Shown here piece by piece: positions 32,756-44,013 of a DNA stretch of 64,000 nucleotides (its first letter is position 1; the number at the start of each line of letters is the position of its first letter). The translations under genes were made by a program, and so were the position numbers. The notes under the pieces are model-generated. The model had not been told where the DNA came from, did no database searches, and worked only from the letters and a program-made list of their open reading frames with translations. The stretch covers positions 1-64,000 of the forward strand of contig NZ_CP084090.1 of NCBI RefSeq assembly GCF_020217425.1, in the 5' to 3' direction. The DNA comes from Halomicrobium urmianum. Its GTDB lineage: Archaea > Halobacteriota > Halobacteria > Halobacteriales > Haloarculaceae.

Positions 32756-32910
32756 TCGGCGGAGGGGTTCCGGCGCGGCGACCGTGCCGGACGACCGCTA
32801 GACTGCACCGAGCCGAACTGCCATAAAAAAGGTCGGTGAATATCTTCGCTTCGGTTCTCAGCGGACAGGAATCAACGGGTGCTTGAGGGTGGCAGGGGGT
32901 CGACTCGTCG

Positions 32911-32960: not shown

Positions 32961-35900
32961 GTGACGCTGACGCGGCGCGACTTCCTGACTGCGGCGGGGA
33001 CTGGCGCCGTCGGGGCGATGGTCGGCGGTGCCTGGGGCGCCACGCAGGCGACGGAGCCGATCACGAGCGTCGAGAACCCGCTCCGGTCGTACCCCAACCG
33101 TGACTGGGAGGAGGTGTATCACGAGATATACGCGTACGACGAGGTGGACTGGACGGTCTGTCACCCGAACTGCACCCAGTCGTGCGCGCTGAACTTCTAC
33201 ATGAAAAACGGGGTACCGATCCGGGCCGAGCAGATCTACCACGAGGAGGAGGGGAGTCCCGGACCGGGGAGTCCGGGCGGCTACGAGCAGGCCGACGTCA
33301 CCCAGCACTGGAACCCGCGCGGGTGCATGAAAGGGCTGTCGCTGCACCGCCGGACGTTCGAGCCCTCGCGGATCAAGTACCCGATGGTCCGCAAGGGCTG
33401 GGACCCCGAGGACCCGAACCAGGAGGGCCGCGGCGAGGACGAGTTCGAGCGCGTCTCCTGGGCGGAGGCGTTCGACCTGATCGCCGAGAAGATGGCGAAC
33501 CTGGAGGACAACAAGCGGTTCCACATCTTCAACGCGATCAAGTCCGACGGGCTGATCACCCGCCACGGCGCGGGGCGTCGGCTGGCGTCCATCTTCGGCG
33601 GCTGCGAGTGGACGGAGTACGACTGGTACGCCGACCTGCCGCCGGGACACGTCATCACGACGGGCTACCAGACCAGCGACGCCGACGCGTCGGCCTGGCG
33701 ACAGGCCGACTACACGATCATGCAGGGGAAGAACCTGATCCACAACAAGCTCGCGGACAACCACTTCCTGCAGGAGACCCGCGAGCGGGGCGGCAAGATG
33801 GTCGGCGTCTATCCCGACTACTCGCCGACGGTCCAGAAGTGCGACCGCTGGCTCCCCGTCCGCCCCGGCTCCGACCCGGCGTTCGCGCTGGGCGTGGCCC
33901 ACGTGATCATCGACGAGGAGCTGTACGACGCCGACTTCATGCGGCAGTTCACGAGCCTGCCGCTGCTCGTGCGCGAGGACGACGGGAAATACCTCCGCGC
34001 ACACGAAGTCTTCGAGGACTACGAGGCCCCGCCCGAGGACGTCGACCACCAGAACGAGGAGCGCGACTGGGGCGACTTCGTGGCGCTCGGCCGGGACGGC
34101 GACCTCGTGGCGGTCGACCGGGAGTCGGTCGGCTCGGAGACGCCCGACGAGCCCCGGCTGGACGTCGATCGCGAGGTCGAACTGGCCGACGGGTCGACGG
34201 TGGCCGTCCGGTCGGACTTCGCGCGCCAGCGCGACAACGTCGTGGAGAACTACGACCCGGAGACGGTCGAGGACATCACGACCATCCCGGCCAACAAGCT
34301 CCGCCAGACCGCCCGGGAGTTCGCCGACGCCGAGAAGGGCCAGTGGTTCACCGGCGAGGGGATCAACCACTGGTTCCACTCCAACGACTCGCTCCAGCGG
34401 ACCATCTTCTTCGTCCAGTCGATGCTGGGCAACATCGGCGAACGGGGCGCGGGCTACTACAACTACTCCGGCCAGTACAAGATCGAGCTGCTGGACGGCT
34501 ACCCGGAGTACGTCAACCCCGACGGCCACTCCGCCCACGGGATGTACCCCGGCTACGCCTTCGCCTTCTTCGGCGGCGAGTCGCTGGACCCCCACGAGCT
34601 CCGGGGCGACTTCGACGAGGAACTGGACCTCACTCCCCAGGAGGACGCCGAGGAGCCGGTCGTGCCGGAGGGCGCGGACACCTACACGATGTCCAAGCCC
34701 CGGATCCTCTGGACGATGAACTGCAACCTCCTGAACCAGACCAAACACCAGCAGCACGTCGTCGAGAACTTCGTCAAGCACCCCGAGACGGAAAACGAGC
34801 TGTTCGTCGTCTCGGACATGCACATGACCTACTCGGCGCGCCACGCCGACATCGTGCTGCCGGTCCCCTCCTGGCTGGAATGTGAGTACCCCGACATCAC
34901 GGTCGGACCGGAGAACCCCTTCCTGCAGATGGACAGCGGGGTGATGGACCCCATCTACGACACCATGCAGGACGGGGAGGCCGTGGCCAGGGTCGCCGAG
35001 AAGCTCGACGAGAAGACCGACCCCGCGGAGCGCAACGTCGACTCCTACCGGGAGTACTTCGCGGAGTTCCTCGACGAGGACGGCGACCCGAAGGAGTACA
35101 TCCAGCAGGCGCTCGACGCCGGCATGACGACCCGGGACATCGACGTCGAGGACCTGGAGGACGGCCCCGAGCGCCTCCAGCTCAAGACCTACCCGCGGGT
35201 CCCCTTCTGGGGGCAGATCCACGAGGATCGACCGTTCTACACCAAGACCGGCCGGATGGAGTTCCACAAGGAGGAGGACCGCTTCCTCGAACTGGGCCGC
35301 TCTGACCTGGATCACATCGAGAGCGTCGAGGGGACGCCCTACGGCCGGAACAAGACGTGGGACGAGGCCAAGGACGAGGAGAACCCGATCTACCACGACC
35401 AGGAGTACCAGTTCTACTACAACACGCCGCACCCGAAGTACCGGACCCACTCCTCGTGGGGGATGACCGACTGGAACCTCGTCTGGTCGGCCCGGGACTT
35501 CGGCAGCGTCAGCGCCGACCCCGAGGGGACCGACCGGCTGGTCGACGACTTCTCGTTCCCGACCGGCGACGGCGAGAGCGAGGACGCCGCGCCGCTGGGC
35601 GAGGCGTTCGTCGAGATCCACCCCGAGGACGCCGCGGACATGGACGTCGATAACGGCGACTACGTCCGGATCGGGAACGACCGCGGGAGCCTCGTCGTGC
35701 GCGCGATGATCAGCGAGCGCCAGCGCCCGCGCTCGGCCGGCGACATGGGCCAGCTGACCATCTGGCACGGCTGGTGGCCCCAGCACTTCCCGGAGGACGA
35801 GGAGGCCGACGAGGACGCCGAACGCGGCTACAACGTGACGACGAACCTGTGGCTGGACCCGCTGCAGGAGACCGACGACCTCGTCCACAAGGCCGTCTTC

Positions 35901-36140
35901 GGCGACCCCAACATCTCCGAGGCGGTCGAGGAGGAGATCGCCTGGCACGGGGCGGAACTCGAACACGGCTACGAGGAGACCGTCTGGGCCCCGACCGGGA
36001 CGAACCGCGACGACCTCGTCGAGGTCGAGAAGTACGAGGAGGCGGACTGGTGGCCCGGCGACGCCCGCCGGGACGACCTGATCGAGGACTACATCGGCGG
36101 ATCGCTGCAGCCCGGTTCCCCGACCGGAGGTGACGACTGA
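32961..36140 (+). CDS. Type II DMSO-reductase-family molybdopterin oxidoreductase, catalytic subunit (DdhA/SerA/ClrA/NarG-like)
   Basis: A 1059-residue Mo-bisMGD enzyme. The GTG at 32961 yields a twin-arginine signal (MTLTRRDFLTAAGTGAVGA), so the folded enzyme is exported to the cell exterior. FeS cluster FS0 ligands are Cys67-x3-Cys71-x3-Cys75 and Cys122; NarG has His where Cys67 stands (His68 is adjacent). The Mo-ligand loop EYDWYADLPPG (Asp221) is diagnostic for type II enzymes. The C-terminal MGD-binding domain includes VEIHPEDAADMDVDNGDYV. The ABDC gene order downstream fits DMS dehydrogenase, selenate or chlorate reductase rather than NarGHJI. The substrate is not identifiable by eye. 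Confidence 0.9.
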   Translation: MTLTRRDFLTAAGTGAVGAMVGGAWGATQATEPITSVENPLRSYPNRDWEEVYHEIYAYDEVDWTVCHPNCTQSCALNFYMKNGVPIRAEQIYHEEEGSPGPGSPGGYEQADVTQHWNPRGCMKGLSLHRRTFEPSRIKYPMVRKGWDPEDPNQEGRGEDEFERVSWAEAFDLIAEKMANLEDNKRFHIFNAIKSDGLITRHGAGRRLASIFGGCEWTEYDWYADLPPGHVITTGYQTSDADASAWRQADYTIMQGKNLIHNKLADNHFLQETRERGGKMVGVYPDYSPTVQKCDRWLPVRPGSDPAFALGVAHVIIDEELYDADFMRQFTSLPLLVREDDGKYLRAHEVFEDYEAPPEDVDHQNEERDWGDFVALGRDGDLVAVDRESVGSETPDEPRLDVDREVELADGSTVAVRSDFARQRDNVVENYDPETVEDITTIPANKLRQTAREFADAEKGQWFTGEGINHWFHSNDSLQRTIFFVQSMLGNIGERGAGYYNYSGQYKIELLDGYPEYVNPDGHSAHGMYPGYAFAFFGGESLDPHELRGDFDEELDLTPQEDAEEPVVPEGADTYTMSKPRILWTMNCNLLNQTKHQQHVVENFVKHPETENELFVVSDMHMTYSARHADIVLPVPSWLECEYPDITVGPENPFLQMDSGVMDPIYDTMQDGEAVARVAEKLDEKTDPAERNVDSYREYFAEFLDEDGDPKEYIQQALDAGMTTRDIDVEDLEDGPERLQLKTYPRVPFWGQIHEDRPFYTKTGRMEFHKEEDRFLELGRSDLDHIESVEGTPYGRNKTWDEAKDEENPIYHDQEYQFYYNTPHPKYRTHSSWGMTDWNLVWSARDFGSVSADPEGTDRLVDDFSFPTGDGESEDAAPLGEAFVEIHPEDAADMDVDNGDYVRIGNDRGSLVVRAMISERQRPRSAGDMGQLTIWHGWWPQHFPEDEEADEDAERGYNVTTNLWLDPLQETDDLVHKAVFGDPNISEAVEEEIAWHGAELEHGYEETVWAPTGTNRDDLVEVEKYEEADWWPGDARRDDLIEDYIGGSLQPGSPTGGDD

Positions 36141-36175
36141 TGAGCAACTGCGAGACCGGAGGAGGTGACGACTGA
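36140..36175 (+). CDS. Eleven-residue ORF from a tandem duplication between subunit genes
   Basis: ATG AGC AAC TGC GAG ... GAC GAC TGA encodes MSNCETGGGDD. Its ATG overlaps the catalytic-subunit stop (TGATG) and its TGA overlaps the beta-subunit ATG in the same way. The block ACCGGAGGTGACGACTGATG at 36123-36142 recurs at 36155-36177 with one extra GGA, so a short tandem duplication created two ribosome-site/stop/start cassettes. It may simply be a passive relay for translational coupling. Confidence 0.5.
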   Translation: MSNCETGGGDD

Positions 36176-37350
36176 TGGCAAATGTCTACAACCCGCAACT
36201 CGGCCGCGATCACAGCTACCCTTATGAGCACCGCGAGGAGGAGCGGGACTACCACTGGGGGATGGTCGTCAATATCAACCGCTGTATCAACTGCAACACC
36301 TGCTCGTTCGCCTGCAAGTCTACCTGGACCAGCGGCGAGGGCGAGGAGTACATGTGGTGGATGAACGTCGAGACCGAGCCCTACGGCGGCTACCCGCTGG
36401 GCTGGGACATGCGCCTGCTGGAGGACCTCGGCTCCGACGAGACCATCTTCGACGCCGCCGGGGACGGCGAGCAGGTCCGCGGTTACATCGCCGAGAAGGG
36501 CGCATGGGAGTACCCCGCGCTGGGCGACGATCAGGTCCACGGCGAGTACCCCGAGGGCGACGTCGTCGAGTCCGACGTCGAGGAAGGCGAGTACCACGAC
36601 ATGTGGCAGTTCTACCTGCCGCGCCTGTGCAACCACTGCAAGAACCCCGCCTGCCTCGCGGCCTGTCCGCGCCAGGCCATCTACAAGCGCGAGGAGGACG
36701 GCATCGTCCTGCTCGACCAGGAGCGCTGCCGCGGCTACCGCCGCTGCGTCAAGGGGTGTCCCTACCACAAGCCGATGTACAACCCGGAGACGGGCATCAC
36801 CGAGAAGCCCGTCGGCTGTTACCCACGCATCGAGGAGGGTAACGTCCCCCGCTGCGTCTCCTCCTGCATCGGGAAGACACGCCTGCACGGCAACATCAAC
36901 CGCGGGCCCGACGCGCCCTCGCCCGGCGGCGACGCTCCCGGCGGTCGCTCGCCGATCAACTACCTCGTCCACTCCGACGAGAAGGTGGCGCTGCCGCTGT
37001 ACCCGCAGTTCGGCACGCGGCCGCAGGTGTTCTACATGCCGCCGTACCACGTGCCCCCGGAGTTCCTGACCCAGATGTTCACGCCCAACGAGGAGGAAAA
37101 GCGCAACGACTGGCCGGGCGACACCTACGAGGAGTCCGTCCGCATCGTCCAGAAGCGGGTCCGGAACCCCAGCCACGAGGTGCTGGGCATCCTCCAGCTG
37201 TTCGGCGCGACGACGCGGCTCATCGAGACCTACGAGGTCACCGAGGACCGCGCGAGGGGCTGGGACCGCACCGGCGAGAAAGTCGCGGACGTCCCCATCG
37301 AGGAGCCCATGGAGGTCCGCGAGGGCGAACAGTGGACCAACCAGCCCTGA
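36175..37350 (+). CDS. Iron-sulfur (beta) subunit of the molybdoenzyme
   Basis: A 391-residue electron-transfer subunit, exported by hitch-hiking with the Tat-signalled alpha subunit since it lacks its own signal. Four cysteine motifs: NRCINCNTCSFACKSTW near residue 40, CNHCKNPACLAACP near 153, CRGYRRCVKGCPYHK near 184 and CVSSCIGK near 223. In the third motif one Cys is Tyr (CRGYRRC), as Trp in NarH, so that cluster should be [3Fe-4S] with three [4Fe-4S] clusters. It is NarH/DdhB/SerB-like. Confidence 0.92.
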   Translation: MANVYNPQLGRDHSYPYEHREEERDYHWGMVVNINRCINCNTCSFACKSTWTSGEGEEYMWWMNVETEPYGGYPLGWDMRLLEDLGSDETIFDAAGDGEQVRGYIAEKGAWEYPALGDDQVHGEYPEGDVVESDVEEGEYHDMWQFYLPRLCNHCKNPACLAACPRQAIYKREEDGIVLLDQERCRGYRRCVKGCPYHKPMYNPETGITEKPVGCYPRIEEGNVPRCVSSCIGKTRLHGNINRGPDAPSPGGDAPGGRSPINYLVHSDEKVALPLYPQFGTRPQVFYMPPYHVPPEFLTQMFTPNEEEKRNDWPGDTYEESVRIVQKRVRNPSHEVLGILQLFGATTRLIETYEVTEDRARGWDRTGEKVADVPIEEPMEVREGEQWTNQP

Positions 37351-37359
37351 GGTGATACC

Positions 37360-38073
37360 ATGGAGGATCAACAGTTCCACGCGCGCCGCGCCGCACTGTA
37401 CGGCTACGCCGCCGCGGCGCTCCAGTTCCCGGACGAGACGACCGTCGCCGACCTCACCGACGGCGAGGTGCAGTCGGCCGTCCGGGCGGCCGGCGACGCC
37501 GTCGGCCCCCGCGAGGAGGTCGACCGGCTCATCGAGGCCCTCGACGGCGTCGACAGAGACGGGCTCGAATCGGCGTACAACGACCTGTTCGGCGTCCCCG
37601 GCGCGGACGGCACCTACCCCGTCGTTCCCTACGAGGCCGAGCACACCGTCGAGGGCGACGTCGGCGAGAAGCAGCGCCGGATCGCCACCGTCGTCGGCCT
37701 GCTGGAGCAGTTCGGCCTCGAACCCGGCTCCGAGTTCGACGAGCGCCACGACCACGTCGCGGTCGAGCTCGAACTGCTGCAGGTGCTGGCCGCCCAGCGA
37801 GCCGCGGCGCTGGCCGACAGCGACGAGGAGGCGGCCGACCGGCTGGCGCGGGCCACCGCGACGGCCGTCGACGAGCACCTCGTCGCCTTCGTCCCCGACC
37901 TCGCCCACGCCGTGACGGCGGAGGTGGGCAACGGCCCGGATGATTCGGACGCCGCTGACGGCGCGCACGAGGTCTACGCACGCGCGGCCGAACTGGCCGC
38001 CGCGCTGGTCGAGCGCGACGCGGCGAGTCACCCCGACCCGGCGTCGACCCAGGGGGTGACGACCGATGCCTGA
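37360..38073 (+). CDS. TorD/NarJ-type molybdoenzyme chaperone (DdhD-like)
   Basis: A 237-residue, all-helical acidic protein between the Fe-S and heme subunits. It contains the family's YNDLFGVPGADGTYPVVPYE (compare Y..LF.GP..PPYES of TorD-like proteins). It would insert the molybdenum cofactor and hold the alpha subunit until Tat export. No signal or cofactor sites are seen, which fits a cytoplasmic, non-subunit chaperone. It overlaps the next gene by 8 nt. Confidence 0.85.
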   Translation: MEDQQFHARRAALYGYAAAALQFPDETTVADLTDGEVQSAVRAAGDAVGPREEVDRLIEALDGVDRDGLESAYNDLFGVPGADGTYPVVPYEAEHTVEGDVGEKQRRIATVVGLLEQFGLEPGSEFDERHDHVAVELELLQVLAAQRAAALADSDEEAADRLARATATAVDEHLVAFVPDLAHAVTAEVGNGPDDSDAADGAHEVYARAAELAAALVERDAASHPDPASTQGVTTDA

Positions 38074-39076
38074 GTTCGACCGCGGGGCCGCCCGGCGAGC
38101 CACCGCGGCGGCCGCCGTCGTCGCCGCCCTGCTCGTCGTGGCCCAGGGAGCCGTGACGGCCGCTGTCACGGGCGGCCAGCAGCCGATAGTCGCGACCGAT
38201 CAGGTGCCCCAGGCCGCGGCCAGCCAGCAGTGGAGCGACGCGCCCTCGCGGACCGTCTCGCTGTCGAAACAGCAGATGGCCCTGCCCTACGGCGGCGGGA
38301 GCGTCGACGAGATGGAGGTGCAGGCGATGACTAACGACTCCCACGTCGCCTTCCGGCTGACCTGGGACGACCCGACGAACGACACCAGCCTCGCCTCGCC
38401 CGAGAGTTACAGCGACGCCGCGGCGATCATGTTCCGCAGCGGCGAGCAGCCGCCGATCACGATGGGCGCGGCCGGCACCCCGGTCAACATCTGGTACTGG
38501 CGTGCCCAGTGGCAGTACGGCGCCGACGACCACGCGGAGTGGACCGGCGACATGTACGCGTACCCCAATCCCGACCGGGAGACGAAGCCCGGTCTGGCCG
38601 CCGGGAACCCCCTCTCGCAGGGCGAGTACGACGACTACGGGCAGAACTACTACGCAGCCGGCTTCGGCTCGCTGTCCCACGCGCCCGCCCAGAACGTCGA
38701 CGCCACCGCGACGCGCGACGGCGACCAGTGGTCGGTCGCGTTCGTTCGCGAGCACGCCACGGACGGGACCCACGACGCCGTCTTCCGCGCCAACGAGTCG
38801 ATGTACCTCGCCTTCGCCGCCTGGAACGGTAGCGCCGACGAGGTCAACGGGAAGAAGTCGATCACGCTGCAGTTCAGCACGCTCGACACCGAGACGGGCG
38901 AACTGTCGGCGGCGAACCCCGGTGGCAGCGACGGCGACGGCGGCGACGGCAGCGGCGAGGGAAGCGGCGGTGGCGGCGGCAGCGGCGGCCTCCCCCAGCC
39001 CTTCGGCTACCTCGGCGGCCTCGTCGCGGCCGTGATCGTCAGCTGGGCGGCCGTCTACTGGAGGGCCGTGGAATGA
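38066..39076 (+). CDS. Heme-b gamma subunit (ethylbenzene dehydrogenase/DdhC-like), membrane anchored
   Basis: A 336-residue exported beta-sandwich. The N-terminal signal is RRATAAAAVVAALLVVAQGA. The conserved core has AAIMFRSGEQPPITMG and GTPVNIWYWRAQWQ, the heme-binding segment of EbdC/DdhC/SerC/ClrC (axial Met/Lys type). Unlike the soluble bacterial proteins it ends in a Gly/Ser/Asp linker and a single TM (GYLGGLVAAVIVSWAAVYW), tethering the complex to the membrane. It is the likely electron port to or from a quinone partner or small redox protein. Confidence 0.85.
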   Translation: MPEFDRGAARRATAAAAVVAALLVVAQGAVTAAVTGGQQPIVATDQVPQAAASQQWSDAPSRTVSLSKQQMALPYGGGSVDEMEVQAMTNDSHVAFRLTWDDPTNDTSLASPESYSDAAAIMFRSGEQPPITMGAAGTPVNIWYWRAQWQYGADDHAEWTGDMYAYPNPDRETKPGLAAGNPLSQGEYDDYGQNYYAAGFGSLSHAPAQNVDATATRDGDQWSVAFVREHATDGTHDAVFRANESMYLAFAAWNGSADEVNGKKSITLQFSTLDTETGELSAANPGGSDGDGGDGSGEGSGGGGGSGGLPQPFGYLGGLVAAVIVSWAAVYWRAVE

Positions 39077-39981
39077 GCCACGAGAACTGGAGCGCGCTGG
39101 GTCGCGCCCCCGCGGAGACGGAGGACGGCCTCCGCGAGGTCCTGTCCGGCGACGCGGCCCGGACGCGCCGGGAGGCCGCGCTCGCGCTGGTCGACGGCGC
39201 CGAGGAGAGCCTCGACGACGCGACGGTCGCGGCGCTGACAGAGCGCGTCCGCGGTGACGACGACGCCGACGTCCGGCAGTTCGCCGTCGAGGCGCTGGGC
39301 GTCGCCGGCACGGGGAGGGAGGCCATCGAGACCGCGCTCGACGACCCCGAGCCGTGGGTGCGGGCCGAGGCCGTCGTCGCCCTCTCCAGGGCCGGCGGCG
39401 ACGCCGACCGCCTCCGCGAGGCGCTGGGAGACGACAGCGGCTGGGTCCGTCGCAACGCCGTCATCGCGCTGGGCAAGCTCGACGCGGCCGATCAGGACCT
39501 GCTCGTCGAGCGCGTCAAGTCCGATCCCCATCCGGCCGTCCGCGAGTACGCCGCGCAGTTCCTCGGGCGCGACCCGACCGACCGCGAGGAGGCCGAGCGG
39601 ATCCTCGCGGCGCTGCTGGCCCGCGAGGCCAACGCCTTCGCCCGGGCGAAGGCCGCCGAGGGGCTGGGCCGGATCGGCACCGACCGCGCCGAGGAGGCGC
39701 TGGAGACCCACGGCCTGACCGACCGCAGCGAGGACGTCGCGCGGACGGCCAGGCACGCGCTGGCCGACGCCCGCGGCGTCGAACCCGATCGGCTCGACGC
39801 CGACGTCGACCCGCCGACCGCGCCCGGGAGCGGTCCGGACACGCCCGGTGACCAGGCGGTCGAGGGCTTCCGGCCGGACCCGTCGGACCCCACCGGCTGG
39901 TCGGAGGAGTCGACCGCGCCGGGCGGGGCTCCCGGGTTCGACCCGCGGCGCGACCTCGACTCCGACATGACCGACCGATGA
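39073..39981 (+). CDS. HEAT-repeat protein in the molybdoenzyme operon
   Basis: A 302-residue protein made of PBS-lyase-type HEAT repeats: LRGDDDADVRQFAVEALG, DPEPWVRAEAVVALS, DDSGWVRRNAVIALG, DPHPAVREYAAQFLG and DVARTARHALADA, so about six repeats over residues 20-245. A proline/acidic tail follows. No signal peptide or TM, so it is cytoplasmic. It overlaps the gamma gene by 4 nt. Repeat proteins of this kind often serve as assembly scaffolds; an assembly role is inferred from the operon. Confidence 0.8.
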   Translation: MSHENWSALGRAPAETEDGLREVLSGDAARTRREAALALVDGAEESLDDATVAALTERVRGDDDADVRQFAVEALGVAGTGREAIETALDDPEPWVRAEAVVALSRAGGDADRLREALGDDSGWVRRNAVIALGKLDAADQDLLVERVKSDPHPAVREYAAQFLGRDPTDREEAERILAALLAREANAFARAKAAEGLGRIGTDRAEEALETHGLTDRSEDVARTARHALADARGVEPDRLDADVDPPTAPGSGPDTPGDQAVEGFRPDPSDPTGWSEESTAPGGAPGFDPRRDLDSDMTDR

Positions 39982-40616
39982 CCTACGAACTCGACGCCAC
40001 GGACGACCGCGAGGCACCGGACGCGAACGACAGCGGCGACGGCGACGACGGAGCGAGCGACCCGGGCGGCTCCGGCGGGACGCTCGACTCGTCGCTCGGC
40101 GTGACCGTCCCCGACGAACACGTCGGCGCGTTCGTCGCGCAGGCGCTGGAGGACCCCGAGCGCGCGACGACGTGGGACGACGTGGTCGACGCGATGGTCG
40201 CGCCGGCCGCCCGCGACGCGTGGGCGAACCTCTCCCGCGTCGAGCGGGCCGCCGAGATCCTCTCGAAGGCCGCCGACTACGACGAGCGCGCCATCGAGCG
40301 GTTCGAGGCCGTGCCACTGGACGCCGGCGAGGCCGACGTCCGGGACGGCGTCGACGAGGGGCTGCGCTGCCGGCGCAACGCCGACACGTTCCGCGACGGC
40401 GTCGCCGCGGCCTACGGCGACGGTCTACTGGACGACGAGGCGATCGTCGCCGCCCTGAAGCAGTCGGCGTTCGAGACGGACCTCGTCGGCCGCCGCGAGG
40501 ACCTGCTGGAGCGGATCGACGAGGTGTACGACGTCGAGTACTGCCCCTACGGCGGGACGCTGATGGACGCCGAGGAGGGGCCGGAGCCGGAGACCGACCA
40601 CGGGGAGACCTGGTGA
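39978..40616 (+). CDS. Unrecognised acidic protein in the molybdoenzyme operon
   Basis: A 212-residue acidic, probably cytoplasmic protein of no recognised family. The first 45 residues are a disordered Asp/Gly/Ser stretch. Then helices (DDVVDAMVAPAARDAWANL, VERAAEILSKAADYDERAI) follow, two Cys sites (LRCRRNA and YCPYGG) that might bind metal or a cluster, and ETDHGETW at the end. It overlaps the HEAT gene by 4 nt and the Mrp-like gene follows 5 nt later. It is a good candidate for a new maturation factor. Confidence 0.75.
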   Translation: MTYELDATDDREAPDANDSGDGDDGASDPGGSGGTLDSSLGVTVPDEHVGAFVAQALEDPERATTWDDVVDAMVAPAARDAWANLSRVERAAEILSKAADYDERAIERFEAVPLDAGEADVRDGVDEGLRCRRNADTFRDGVAAAYGDGLLDDEAIVAALKQSAFETDLVGRREDLLERIDEVYDVEYCPYGGTLMDAEEGPEPETDHGETW

Positions 40617-40620
40617 CAGC

Positions 40621-41880
40621 ATGAGCGAGCACGAGAGCGGCGACGCGGAACCGACCCCCGACGACGTCCGGGCGGCGCTGCGCGAGGTGACGGACCCGGC
40701 GAGCGGGACGGACGTGGTCGACGCGGGCGCCGTCGGCGGAATCGACGTGACCGGCGGGGCCGTCGCCGTCGACGCCGCCCTCGACGGGCGCGACCCCGAG
40801 ACGGCCGACCTGCTGGCCGACCGGATGCGCTCCGCCGCGCTGGAGCTACCCGGCGTCGAGGACGTCCGCGTCGACGCCGACGCGGCGGGGCCGGACCACG
40901 GGATCACGCTCGACGGCGTCGACCGAGTGGTCGCCGTCGCCAGCGCGAAGGGCGGCGTCGGCAAGACCACCGTCGCGACGCAACTGGCCCGCGGGCTGGC
41001 CGCCGAGGGCGAGTCCGTCGGACTGTTCGACGCCGACGTGTACGGCCCGAACGTCCCCGACCTCCTCGACCTGGAGGGGCCGCTGGAGACGACCGCCGAC
41101 GGCGCCGCGAAGCCGGTCGAACGGGACGGGGTGCAGGCAGTCAGCGTCGGCCTGATCGCCAACGACGAGCCGCTGGCCTGGCGCGGCTCGATGGCCCACG
41201 AGGCCGTCGAGGAGCTGCTGACCGACGCGGCGTGGGACGTCGACACGCTCGTCGTCGACCTGCCGCCGGGGACGGGCGACGTCGTCCTCACGGCGCTGCA
41301 GTCGTTCCCGATCGACGGCGTCGTGCTGGTGTCGACGCCGTTCCCGACCGCGGCCGGGGACACCGGCCGGTCGGAGACGCTGTTCCGCGAGCAGGGCGTG
41401 CCCGTCCTCGGGGCCGTCTTCAACATGGCCGGCTACACCTGCCCCAGTTGCGGCGACGAGCACGCCCCCTTCGGCGAGCCGCCCGAGGTCCGGGCGGAGG
41501 TCCTGGCGGAGCTGCCCGTCGACGAGGACCTGCGGTCGACCGACGGCGACGTGCCCGACCCGTTCCGGTCGATCGCGGGCGCGGTCCGTGAGACGCTGGA
41601 CGAGGCCGACCGCATCGCCGCCGGGCCCGACGCGCTGGACCTTCGCGGCGTCCCGGAACGGGCCCGCCGCGATCAGGTCCGGACCGAGTACGACGCACTC
41701 GACCCGGGCGAGTCGCTGGACGTGCTCGTCGATCAGCCCCCGGCGCCGCTGCGCTCGGCCGTGGCGGACGCCGTCGACGACGAACCCGAGACCGCGACGG
41801 CTCGACGCGATGGGAGCACGTGGGCGGTGCGGTTCTCGAAGCCCGCGCGCGGCCGGGCTGGCGAGGCAGCGGCAGAATAG
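40621..41880 (+). CDS. Mrp/ApbC (NBP35-type) P-loop ATPase with N-terminal MIP18 domain
   Basis: A 419-residue Fe-S cluster carrier ATPase. Residues about 5-90 form a DUF59/MIP18 domain. The deviant Walker A ASAKGGVGKTTVATQLARG lies near 103, VVDLPPGTGDVVLT near 216 carries the switch/Asp site, and the CxxC dimer motif YTCPSCGDEHAPFG is near 278. A C-terminal domain follows (about 350-419) that is not in bacterial Mrp. As last gene of the operon it suggests cluster supply to the molybdoenzyme, but this is inference. Confidence 0.9.
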   Translation: MSEHESGDAEPTPDDVRAALREVTDPASGTDVVDAGAVGGIDVTGGAVAVDAALDGRDPETADLLADRMRSAALELPGVEDVRVDADAAGPDHGITLDGVDRVVAVASAKGGVGKTTVATQLARGLAAEGESVGLFDADVYGPNVPDLLDLEGPLETTADGAAKPVERDGVQAVSVGLIANDEPLAWRGSMAHEAVEELLTDAAWDVDTLVVDLPPGTGDVVLTALQSFPIDGVVLVSTPFPTAAGDTGRSETLFREQGVPVLGAVFNMAGYTCPSCGDEHAPFGEPPEVRAEVLAELPVDEDLRSTDGDVPDPFRSIAGAVRETLDEADRIAAGPDALDLRGVPERARRDQVRTEYDALDPGESLDVLVDQPPAPLRSAVADAVDDEPETATARRDGSTWAVRFSKPARGRAGEAAAE

Positions 41881-41903: not shown

Positions 41904-43826
41904 TCAGACGAGTCGGAACGTCTCCAGGTTCTTCGGGTTGAACGTCCGCATGTTGAAGTTCTGGTAGAGCGCCGAGGAGAGCTGGTTGGTCGAGGACTCG
42001 TCGCCGTGGACGCAGAGGACCTTCTCGGGGCGGGGGTGCATGGTCTCGACGAACGTCTCCAGCCCCTGGCGGTCGGCGTGGCCGGAGAAGCCGTCGACCG
42101 TCTCGACGTTCAGCTTCAGGGAGACGCGCTCGGCGCGGGGGCCGGTGCGGTCCGAGAGAGTGATCTCGTCCTGGCCGCGCTGGATCTGCCGGCCGAGCGT
42201 CCCCTCGGCCTGGTAGCCGACGAATGCCATCGTGTTGTCCGGGTCGCTACCGAGCAGGCGGAGCCACGACATGACGGGCCCGCCGGTGACCATACCGGAC
42301 GTGGTCAGGACGATGCAGGGCCCCTCGTCGGCGATGTCCTGGCGCATCTCGTCGCCGCCGTCGACCTGCTGGAACTGCTCGGCGAGGAAGGGGTTGTCGT
42401 CCTCGTAGAGGATGCGCTGGCGCAGCGACTCCCGGAGGTACTCGGGGTAGGCGGTGTGGATCGCCGTCGCCTCGCGGATCATCCCGTCGAGGTAGACGGG
42501 CATCTCCGGGATCTCGCCGGAGCTCATGGCCTCCTCGAGGACGAGCATCAGCTCCTGGGAGCGGCCGACCGCGAAGGCGGGGATGAGGACCTTGCCGTCG
42601 CGCTCGTGGGCCTCGTTGATGACGCGCTTGAGGACGCGCTCGGAGTCCTCCTGGTCGGTCTGGTAGTCGTTGCGACCGCCGTAGGTCGACTCCAGCACGA
42701 GCGTCTCGACGCGCGGGAAGTCGTTGACCGCGCCGTCCAGCAGCCGGGTGTCCTTGTAGTGGATGTCGCCGGAGAAGGCGACGTTGTACAGCCCCTCGCC
42801 GACGTGGAAGTGACACACCGCGGAGCCGAGGATGTGGCCGGCGTTGTGCATGGTGAGCTTCACGTCCGGCGCGATGTCGGTGACGTTGCCGAACTCGACG
42901 GGGATGGTGTGCTTCAGCGCGTCACGGACCTGCTGGCTCTCGTAGGGCGGGGTGCGGCCCTCCTTGGCGGCGACGTCGAGGTAGTCGAGCTGGAGCAGAC
43001 CCATCAGGTCGCGGGTCGGCTCGGTGGTGTAGATGGGGCCGTCGTAGCCGTACTTGAACAGGATGGGGATCAGGGCGGAGTGGTCGAGGTGGGCGTGGGT
43101 CAGGACGACGGCGTCGATGGAGTTCGGACCCGCAGCGAGCGCCTCGGGCGCCTGGAGGTAGGGCACCTCGTCGGCGGCGCCGGGCTTGTCGCCGCAGTCG
43201 ATGAGGATGCGCGACTCGGGCGTCTGGAGGAGGAACGAGGCGCGGCCGACCTCGCGACAGCAGCCCAGCGTCGTCAGGCGGACCCAGTCCTCGCCGTCGG
43301 AGACGGGGCGGTTGATCTGACGACCGACCCGTTCCAGGATGTCGCGGCGTTCGTCGCGCTCCTGCTTGAGGAAGTTCCGGACGTTCGAGACGGTCGAGGA
43401 CTCCATCGGCGGCGTCCGGACGACCTCGGCGGTCCAGCCGACGGCGGCCGAGATCTCGTCCAGCGTCTCGCCGTGGCGGCCGATCACGAGGCCGGGCTTC
43501 TCGGCCTCGATGAACACCTCGCCGGTCTCGCTGTCGAAGTCGAGGTTCTGCACCCCGGCGTCCTCGGGGATCAGGCTGCGGATCGTGTCGCGGGCCTCGC
43601 GCTGCGGGACCAGCGCGTCCGGCGTCGGCCGGACGGTGATCCGCTTCTGGAGGCGCTGCGCCAGGTCGCGCACGATGCCGTTCCTGTCGGCGACTTTGCG
43701 CGCGTCGGGCGTGTAGACCACCAGTTCGGGCCCCTCGAAGGTGACCGACGCGATCTCGACGTCGTCTGGCGTCTCGTCCTCGACCTGTGTCCGTATCGTC
43801 TCTAGGGTCTCGTCTGCGGAACTCAT
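41904..43826 (-). CDS. aCPSF1-type KH-MBL-beta-CASP ribonuclease
   Basis: A 640-residue archaeal cleavage factor, homologous to CPSF73, implicated in 3'-end processing and transcription termination in archaea. Residues 1-150 hold two KH-like domains. The metallo-beta-lactamase metal motif is VVLTHAHLDHSALIP near residue 240, and the beta-CASP part has ESTYGGRNDYQ and the later HADRQGLETF site. The ATG at 43826 is used; an upstream in-frame start would add six residues. It is convergent with the molybdoenzyme operon. Confidence 0.94.
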   Translation of the reverse strand: MSSADETLETIRTQVEDETPDDVEIASVTFEGPELVVYTPDARKVADRNGIVRDLAQRLQKRITVRPTPDALVPQREARDTIRSLIPEDAGVQNLDFDSETGEVFIEAEKPGLVIGRHGETLDEISAAVGWTAEVVRTPPMESSTVSNVRNFLKQERDERRDILERVGRQINRPVSDGEDWVRLTTLGCCREVGRASFLLQTPESRILIDCGDKPGAADEVPYLQAPEALAAGPNSIDAVVLTHAHLDHSALIPILFKYGYDGPIYTTEPTRDLMGLLQLDYLDVAAKEGRTPPYESQQVRDALKHTIPVEFGNVTDIAPDVKLTMHNAGHILGSAVCHFHVGEGLYNVAFSGDIHYKDTRLLDGAVNDFPRVETLVLESTYGGRNDYQTDQEDSERVLKRVINEAHERDGKVLIPAFAVGRSQELMLVLEEAMSSGEIPEMPVYLDGMIREATAIHTAYPEYLRESLRQRILYEDDNPFLAEQFQQVDGGDEMRQDIADEGPCIVLTTSGMVTGGPVMSWLRLLGSDPDNTMAFVGYQAEGTLGRQIQRGQDEITLSDRTGPRAERVSLKLNVETVDGFSGHADRQGLETFVETMHPRPEKVLCVHGDESSTNQLSSALYQNFNMRTFNPKNLETFRLV

Positions 43827-44013
43827 GTATGGAAACGTCTGCACCTGTCAGCGCCGTCGCGAAAATCACGAGTGACGGCTGACTATGTCTGAAGCCAGAC
43901 CGACGTCGCTTAAGAATCTTTGCTTCTGGTCGCCGGACAGTCACGTCCGTCCCGGGGCCGGCCCGGGTGCCGGACGCAAATGCTTTCCGTGAGCGCGTCA
44001 CACACCCAGCCCC

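Follow-up and report, generated by a model that had tools for sequence, protein, structure and literature searches.

The first 64,000 nucleotides (nt) of contig NZ_CP084090.1 of Halomicrobium urmianum (hereafter the window) carry an operon of seven genes, all on the + strand at 32961-41880, in the order A-B-D-C-HEAT-ORF6-Mrp (Table 1; ORF, open reading frame). We consider it probable that its product is a respiratory nitrate reductase of nitrite oxidoreductase (NXR) ancestry which acts outside the cell membrane, and the best reading of the sequences is a third haloarchaeal respiratory nitrate reductase, one that belongs to the NXR lineage. The coordinates and Pfam/NCBIfam searches bear out the original prediction of a type II dimethyl sulfoxide (DMSO) reductase family operon whose subunit genes are ordered A-B-D-C and followed by three coupled accessory genes, as a MopB alpha subunit with an Asp Mo ligand, a four-cluster beta subunit, a haem-b gamma subunit and a TorD/NarJ chaperone are all present. 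Alpha matches TIGR03479, though at 411.8 bits, below the curated cut-off of 984.75. The operon is real, conserved and beyond chance, because its gene order recurs across haloarchaeal families.

Lineage of the structural subunits

Among solved structures, A matched the Kuenenia NXR best (416 bits), ahead of PcrA (262 bits) and NarG (193 bits), whereas the canonical haloarchaeal pNarG scored 773 bits with PcrA, 507 bits with NarG and only 144 bits with NXR. In an IQ-TREE analysis, in which the NxrA and PcrA rows are partial stretches from PDB alignments and which excludes SerA, DdhA, thermophilic archaeal NarG and further NxrA sequences, the window alpha family was united with NxrA and the long haloarchaeal NarG (support 100/99) and placed outside NarG/pNarG/PcrA/ClrA. 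Quick trees lacking either NxrA or the long NarG retained the remaining join with a Shimodaira-Hasegawa-like approximate likelihood ratio test (SH-aLRT) value of 99. Inside this clade the window alpha branches outside NxrA plus the long haloarchaeal NarG, while the long branches in the tree make its exact place less certain than its exclusion from NarG/pNarG/PcrA/ClrA. The other subunits point in the same direction: B scored higher with NxrB (283.5 bits) than with PcrB (198.7 bits) or NarH (191.9 bits), and the best solved-structure match of C is the Kuenenia NXR (99.9 bits). Among solved structures, A, B and C are thus closest to NxrA, NxrB and NxrC, and not to the DMS (dimethyl sulfide), selenate and chlorate enzymes to which the original prediction had linked them. 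With the window family, the NXR lineage gains a deep-branching archaeal arm.

Two other identities for the enzyme were considered and rejected. Assignment as a DMS dehydrogenase, chlorate reductase or ethylbenzene dehydrogenase finds no support in the tree or the family cut-offs; with the Ebd equivalog, alpha reaches 166.5 bits (cut-off 2000). Neither is it a canonical haloarchaeal pNar, since the phylogeny puts alpha outside the known pNar groups and its identity to the canonical pNarG encoded on contig C3 of the window's genome is about 35%.

The long haloarchaeal NarG, a protein of about 1200 aa known here from Natronococcus and further Natrialbaceae, shares the wider clade with NxrA and is NXR-like itself (L074, L075, L109), with 737 bits for NXR and 178 bits for PcrA in the case of L075. 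No special feature was reported for the longer Natrialbaceae NarGs (PMC8400030). An Mrp-type gene adjoins it in the single annotated locus read, but lies upstream and has no DUF2249 match, and HEAT, ORF6 and EB_dh genes are absent in the loci read. Its FS0 cluster also differs from that of the window alpha, being of the 3Cys/1Asp kind as in NxrA where the sequence is covered (L074, L075).

Active-site residues, FS0 and the haem subunit

In Kuenenia NxrA, FS0 is held by three Cys residues and Asp71, and the Mo site contains Asn70 and Asp275 (PDB 7b04; PMC8387239). Alignment of the window alpha to this protein assigns Asn70 to the substrate, Asp225 to Mo ligation and a Tyr to the gate; N70 and D225 are invariant in the family alignment, and the position of Cys67 is likewise shared. 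Asp71 is replaced by Cys71. C67, C71, C75 and C122 are invariant in 15 window-family sequences, and FS0 should therefore carry four Cys ligands. FS0 in NXR and NAR has been described as 3Cys/1Asp or 3Cys/1His (PMC8387239), so that the putative four-Cys cluster would be a third coordination state, undescribed for NXR/NAR. The same pattern is also seen in haloarchaeal DmsA rows of the alignment. At the substrate-tunnel position where PcrA has Trp and NarG has Glu (PMC6650914), both the window family and NxrA have the gate Tyr.

The gamma subunit C is of the EB_dh type, as in Kuenenia, and its M133 and K264 align with the Kuenenia haem ligands Met155C and Lys305C (PMC8387239). It has two hydrophobic segments, one N-terminal and one C-terminal, of which the latter sets it apart from the Kuenenia protein; further differences from Kuenenia NxrABC are the shorter alpha, the additional HEAT, ORF6 and Mrp-DUF2249 genes, and the denitrification context. 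The NarB Rieske protein and NarC cytochrome b are absent from the window operon, and none of the eight Natrinema/Natrialba genomes tested has a NarC-type cytochrome b. In these genomes, the NarBC route that has been proposed for the canonical pNar is therefore unavailable, and C, equipped with a haem and a membrane segment, would have to draw on another donor.

Distribution and conservation

Window-type alpha was found in 35 of 391 sampled haloarchaeal genomes (the window's genome included) at 76-85% identity, below which the next-best matches fall to about 35-37%. In 34 related loci searched by tblastn, the order A-B-D-C-HEAT-ORF6-Mrp is kept nearly throughout, with Mrp 5' of A in two and not found in the downstream stretch read of L059 and L064; the 4-nt overlaps recur in relatives as well. 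The three accessory genes are thus not scattered in relatives with the same enzyme. Named collections add carriers in Haloarcula, Halosimplex, Natrinema, Halostella, Halobaculum, Halorussus, Halomicroarcula and Natrialba. Outside haloarchaea, a search limited to two peptide patterns and a plasmid collection returned no close homologue.

Several loci show signs of repeated loss, in all of which sequencing error is possible: a frameshift breaks alpha in two in Natrinema pallidum, an internal stop interrupts it in G091, and ORF6 remains without alpha in G168 and G298. In five related loci, all from the Natrinema genus group (L048, L049, L057, L069, L070), beta-propeller genes with weak cytochrome d1 similarity lie 5' of A, together with an apparent HemA-like gene and, in most of these loci, a radical SAM/SPASM gene. 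MobB follows Mrp in L045, L047-L049, L052, L054, L056, L057, L069 and L070, in most cases accompanied by a molybdate/tungstate-type substrate-binding protein, a permease and a Bat-type helix-turn-helix regulator.

Association with nitrate respiration

The substrate, which the original prediction had left unassigned, is pointed to as nitrate/nitrite by several lines of evidence. nirK is present in 31 of the 35 carriers compared with 179 of 356 other genomes (p 9e-6, kinship among genomes ignored), and in seven genomes, which belong to three genera, the distance between nirK and the operon is 2.8-7.3 kb. The surroundings of the operon in Halobaculum roseum include an annotated nirK together with genes for an FNT transporter and a halocyanin, the latter two being present in both Halobaculum islands. 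A neighbouring haem-copper-oxidase-like protein, considered as a possible nor adjoining the operon, has no NCBIfam match and was not used as evidence.

A further line comes from the promoters. The best match to CGAA-N4-TTCG lies at -105 to -132 relative to A in 15 of 16 non-Natrialbaceae promoters and in 7/7 genera, a coincidence of position with a probability of about 1.6e-6 under a uniform null when genera are the counting unit, with the caveats that the band was picked post hoc and that the genera are partly dependent. This palindrome resembles CGAAYATDKTYG, the motif common to narGH, nirK, nor and nosZ promoters (PMC10062603). The window copy has one mismatch to CGAA-N4-TTCG and two to the published consensus, and is not significant alone (P 0.097). 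In the Natrinema and Natrialba promoters, the published motif was not found.

In addition, seven haloarchaea including Natrinema altunense and N. versiforme were reported to respire nitrate without NarG, by a mechanism left open (PMC8400030). Both of these species have a window-type alpha, while canonical pNarG and long NarG are absent in both.

Accessory genes

All three accessory proteins were originally predicted to lack export signals and to be dedicated to this enzyme. The former agrees with our finding that no hydrophobic segment is present in HEAT, ORF6 or Mrp, whereas the latter holds for ORF6 only, as HEAT and Mrp-DUF2249 have homologues in canonical nar operons. In Haloferax larsenii and Halarchaeum, the canonical order is Rieske-cytb-NarG-NarH-EB_dh-TorD-TMprotein-HEAT-Mrp (TM, transmembrane), with HEAT and a P-loop NTPase at the 3' end; the HEAT proteins are 41% identical to that of the window, and the NTPase shares its FeS_assembly_P, ParA and DUF2249 architecture with the window Mrp. 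Further likenesses to the canonical operons include the Tat motif on alpha, a NarH-like beta, TorD and the EB_dh haem subunit. Since a hydrophobic segment at the C-terminus is found in the canonical haem subunits too, the membrane anchor originally predicted for C is not a distinguishing mark. On the other hand, the canonical alpha is PcrA/NarG-like with His at FS0, NarB/NarC are present, the subunit order is G-H-C-J instead of A-B-D-C, and a multi-TM protein takes the place of ORF6. This hypothetical protein was tried as a counterpart of ORF6 and discarded as unrelated.

The window Mrp, a predicted Fe-S carrier, scores 213.9 bits with PF10609 and contains a CPSC sequence (CPxC motif). Operon Mrps stand opposite housekeeping Mrp across a fully supported branch, with the window-type and nar-type members interleaved, and in Haloferax mediterranei the Mrp-DUF2249 encoded by the nar operon is upregulated during denitrification, with a log2 fold change of 3.60 (PMC11218638). 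Elsewhere in the window's genome, a further Mrp-like protein (L127, G000:C3:240058-240765) has GTST in its P-loop instead of GKTT. On an Alisedimentitalea plasmid (L099:7542-13387), a type II alpha that forms a long tree branch is accompanied by chlorite dismutase, TorD, cytochrome c and Mrp/NBP35, which ties Mrp to a type II enzyme in bacteria as well.

ORF6 was detected in 35/35 alpha carriers and in 2/356 other genomes, both times as a fragment; G168 has kept ORF6 and Mrp, with alpha not found. It is predicted to be all-helical with a confident core at about residues 50-190, for which no PDB match was obtained at E<=0.001, and the Pfam search returned noise only. The two Cys sites highlighted in the original prediction are not conserved, and a role as Cys-based metal carrier was accordingly dismissed. 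The steady tie of ORF6 to alpha suggests a role in something enzyme-specific, the four-Cys FS0 being one candidate. Judging from these comparisons, HEAT and Mrp-DUF2249 appear to be a shared module of haloarchaeal nitrate reductases, with ORF6 alone being enzyme-specific, and the three genes together may serve maturation.

Proposed mechanism

Based on the motifs, Mrp would load Fe-S clusters in the cytoplasm while D guards apo-alpha and the insertion of Mo-bisMGD, with HEAT and ORF6 perhaps acting as an assembly platform or in quality control. The folded A-B pair would then be exported jointly via Tat, as alpha has a twin-arginine motif and B, which has no signal peptide of its own, may be carried along. 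Outside, the Met/Lys haem-b protein C would dock on B and tie the complex to the outer face through its C-terminal membrane segment. Electrons would pass from the C haem through the B clusters and the four-Cys FS0 to Mo, the site at which nitrate would be converted to nitrite, and the product would be open to further reduction by NirK. For Natrinema and Natrialba at least, the electron source may be a halocyanin or a different quinol route.

Weighing of alternative explanations

Several observations weigh against a nitrate reductase. NXR-type enzymes work in both directions, and the catalytic direction is therefore not fixed by sequence; we took nitrate reduction from the genomic context. The nirK enrichment was calculated without phylogeny correction, and Natrialbaceae lack the palindrome, of which the window has an imperfect copy. 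A DmsA-like enzyme (187 bits) is present in N. altunense as an additional alpha. Canonical pNarG is also present in 11 of 20 named carriers, where nitrate reduction by the window enzyme would therefore be redundant, and the window family is absent from the probable Natrinema saccharevitans genome (G193), so that the operon is not the explanation for every NarG-less nitrate respirer. The roles of HEAT, ORF6 and Mrp, finally, are putative.

One alternative proposal is a physiological nitrite oxidoreductase, which would turn nitrite into nitrate and pass electrons via C to halocyanin and an oxidase as supplementary aerobic energy in heterotrophic haloarchaea. NXR being the best structural relative of A, B and C, the gate Tyr shared with NxrA, the absence of a NarBC-type quinol complex from the operon and of NarC from Natrinema/Natrialba genomes, the halocyanin and FNT genes nearby in Halobaculum, and the coexistence with canonical pNar in many genomes would all fit this proposal. 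We nevertheless regard it as very unlikely, because the operon lies near nirK and under a denitrification-type motif, encodes the sole NarG-like enzyme in two reported nitrate respirers, and has an alpha that branches outside NxrA proper; besides, we found no nitrite-oxidising haloarchaeon reported in the open PubMed Central papers searched. An even slimmer chance is given to an archaeal NXR which runs from nitrite to nitrate in vivo and by which some haloarchaea would conserve energy, ORF6 then being a factor peculiar to this lineage of four-Cys-FS0 NXR. A reductase of another oxyanion (chlorate, perchlorate, selenate, iodate) or a Ddh/Ebd-type dehydrogenase is unlikely, too. The soluble Clr/Ser/Ddh/Ebd enzymes have the A-B-D-C order (which matches clr), a type II alpha and a haem-b gamma, type II enzymes are promiscuous, and the sub-threshold TIGR03479 score makes the substrate unreadable from family membership. 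Yet the window alpha goes with the NxrA lineage, apart from PcrA and from ClrA, which sits on the NarG/PcrA side of the tree with a His FS0; HEAT, ORF6 and Mrp are absent in the clr locus read, alpha is far under the curated Ebd cut-offs, no annotated chlorite dismutase is present in the flanks read, and the neighbours are nitrogen-cycle genes.

Compatible with any of these enzymes is the idea that HEAT, ORF6 and Mrp merely hitchhike in the operon, serve Fe-S metabolism or stress responses in general and are dispensable for the enzyme. HEAT and Mrp do belong to broad superfamilies, and the variable placement of Mrp, which precedes A in two loci and was not detected 3' of the operon in L059 and L064, would agree with it, but the near-exclusive occurrence of ORF6 together with alpha, the placing of the operon Mrp in a nitrate-reductase-associated clade apart from housekeeping Mrp, and the recurrent 4-nt overlaps render it quite improbable. 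A nitrate reductase of NXR ancestry thus remains our preferred reading.

Operon layout

D and C overlap by 8 nt, C and HEAT by 4 nt, and HEAT and ORF6 by 4 nt, in line with the overlaps predicted originally; the gap between ORF6 and Mrp is 4 nt instead of 5 nt. Beyond the operon, a gene for the FttA/aCPSF1 termination factor occupies 41904-43844 on the - strand, its end being 23 nt from the operon stop codon.

Table 1. Promoter elements and genes of the operon in the window.
Feature	Position	Strand	Remarks
TATA-like CATAAAAAAGG (32822-32832), then semi-palindrome TGAATATCTTCG (32837-32848)	32822..32848	+	124 nt 5' of A start
A, catalytic Mo-bisMGD alpha subunit, MopB	32961..36140	+	GTG start; twin-arginine TRRDFL; Pfam/NCBIfam
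B, iron-sulfur beta subunit, 4Fe-4S	36175..37350	+	without signal peptide; Pfam/NCBIfam
D, NarJ/TorD-type chaperone	37360..38073	+	PF02613; TIGR03482 below cut-off
C, haem-b gamma subunit, EB_dh/NxrC type	38066..39076	+	M133, K264; C-terminal hydrophobic segment 313-331
HEAT-repeat accessory protein (HEAT_2)	39073..39981	+	41% identity to canonical nar-operon HEAT
ORF6, acidic, predicted all-helical, no Pfam/NCBIfam family	39978..40616	+	specific to window operon type
Mrp-type P-loop iron-sulfur carrier, FeS_assembly_P + ParA/NUBPL (CPSC) + DUF2249	40621..41880	+	

Significance

The gene set seems to have gone unrecognised so far in the open PubMed Central literature, an earlier description in a subscription journal being possible, and within the reach of our two peptide patterns and plasmid collection it is seen only in haloarchaea. 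The comparison separates the shared HEAT/Mrp-DUF2249 module from ORF6 as a single, apparently enzyme-specific factor, and the predicted four-Cys FS0 may add a third coordination to 3Cys/1Asp and 3Cys/1His. An archaeal branch of the NXR lineage would also bear on the origin of periplasmic NXR. The operon is a concrete candidate for nitrate respiration in two of the seven NarG-less respirers (PMC8400030), N. altunense and N. versiforme, and if it does encode a nitrate reductase, surveys probed with canonical NarG would undercount the nitrate reducers in brines.

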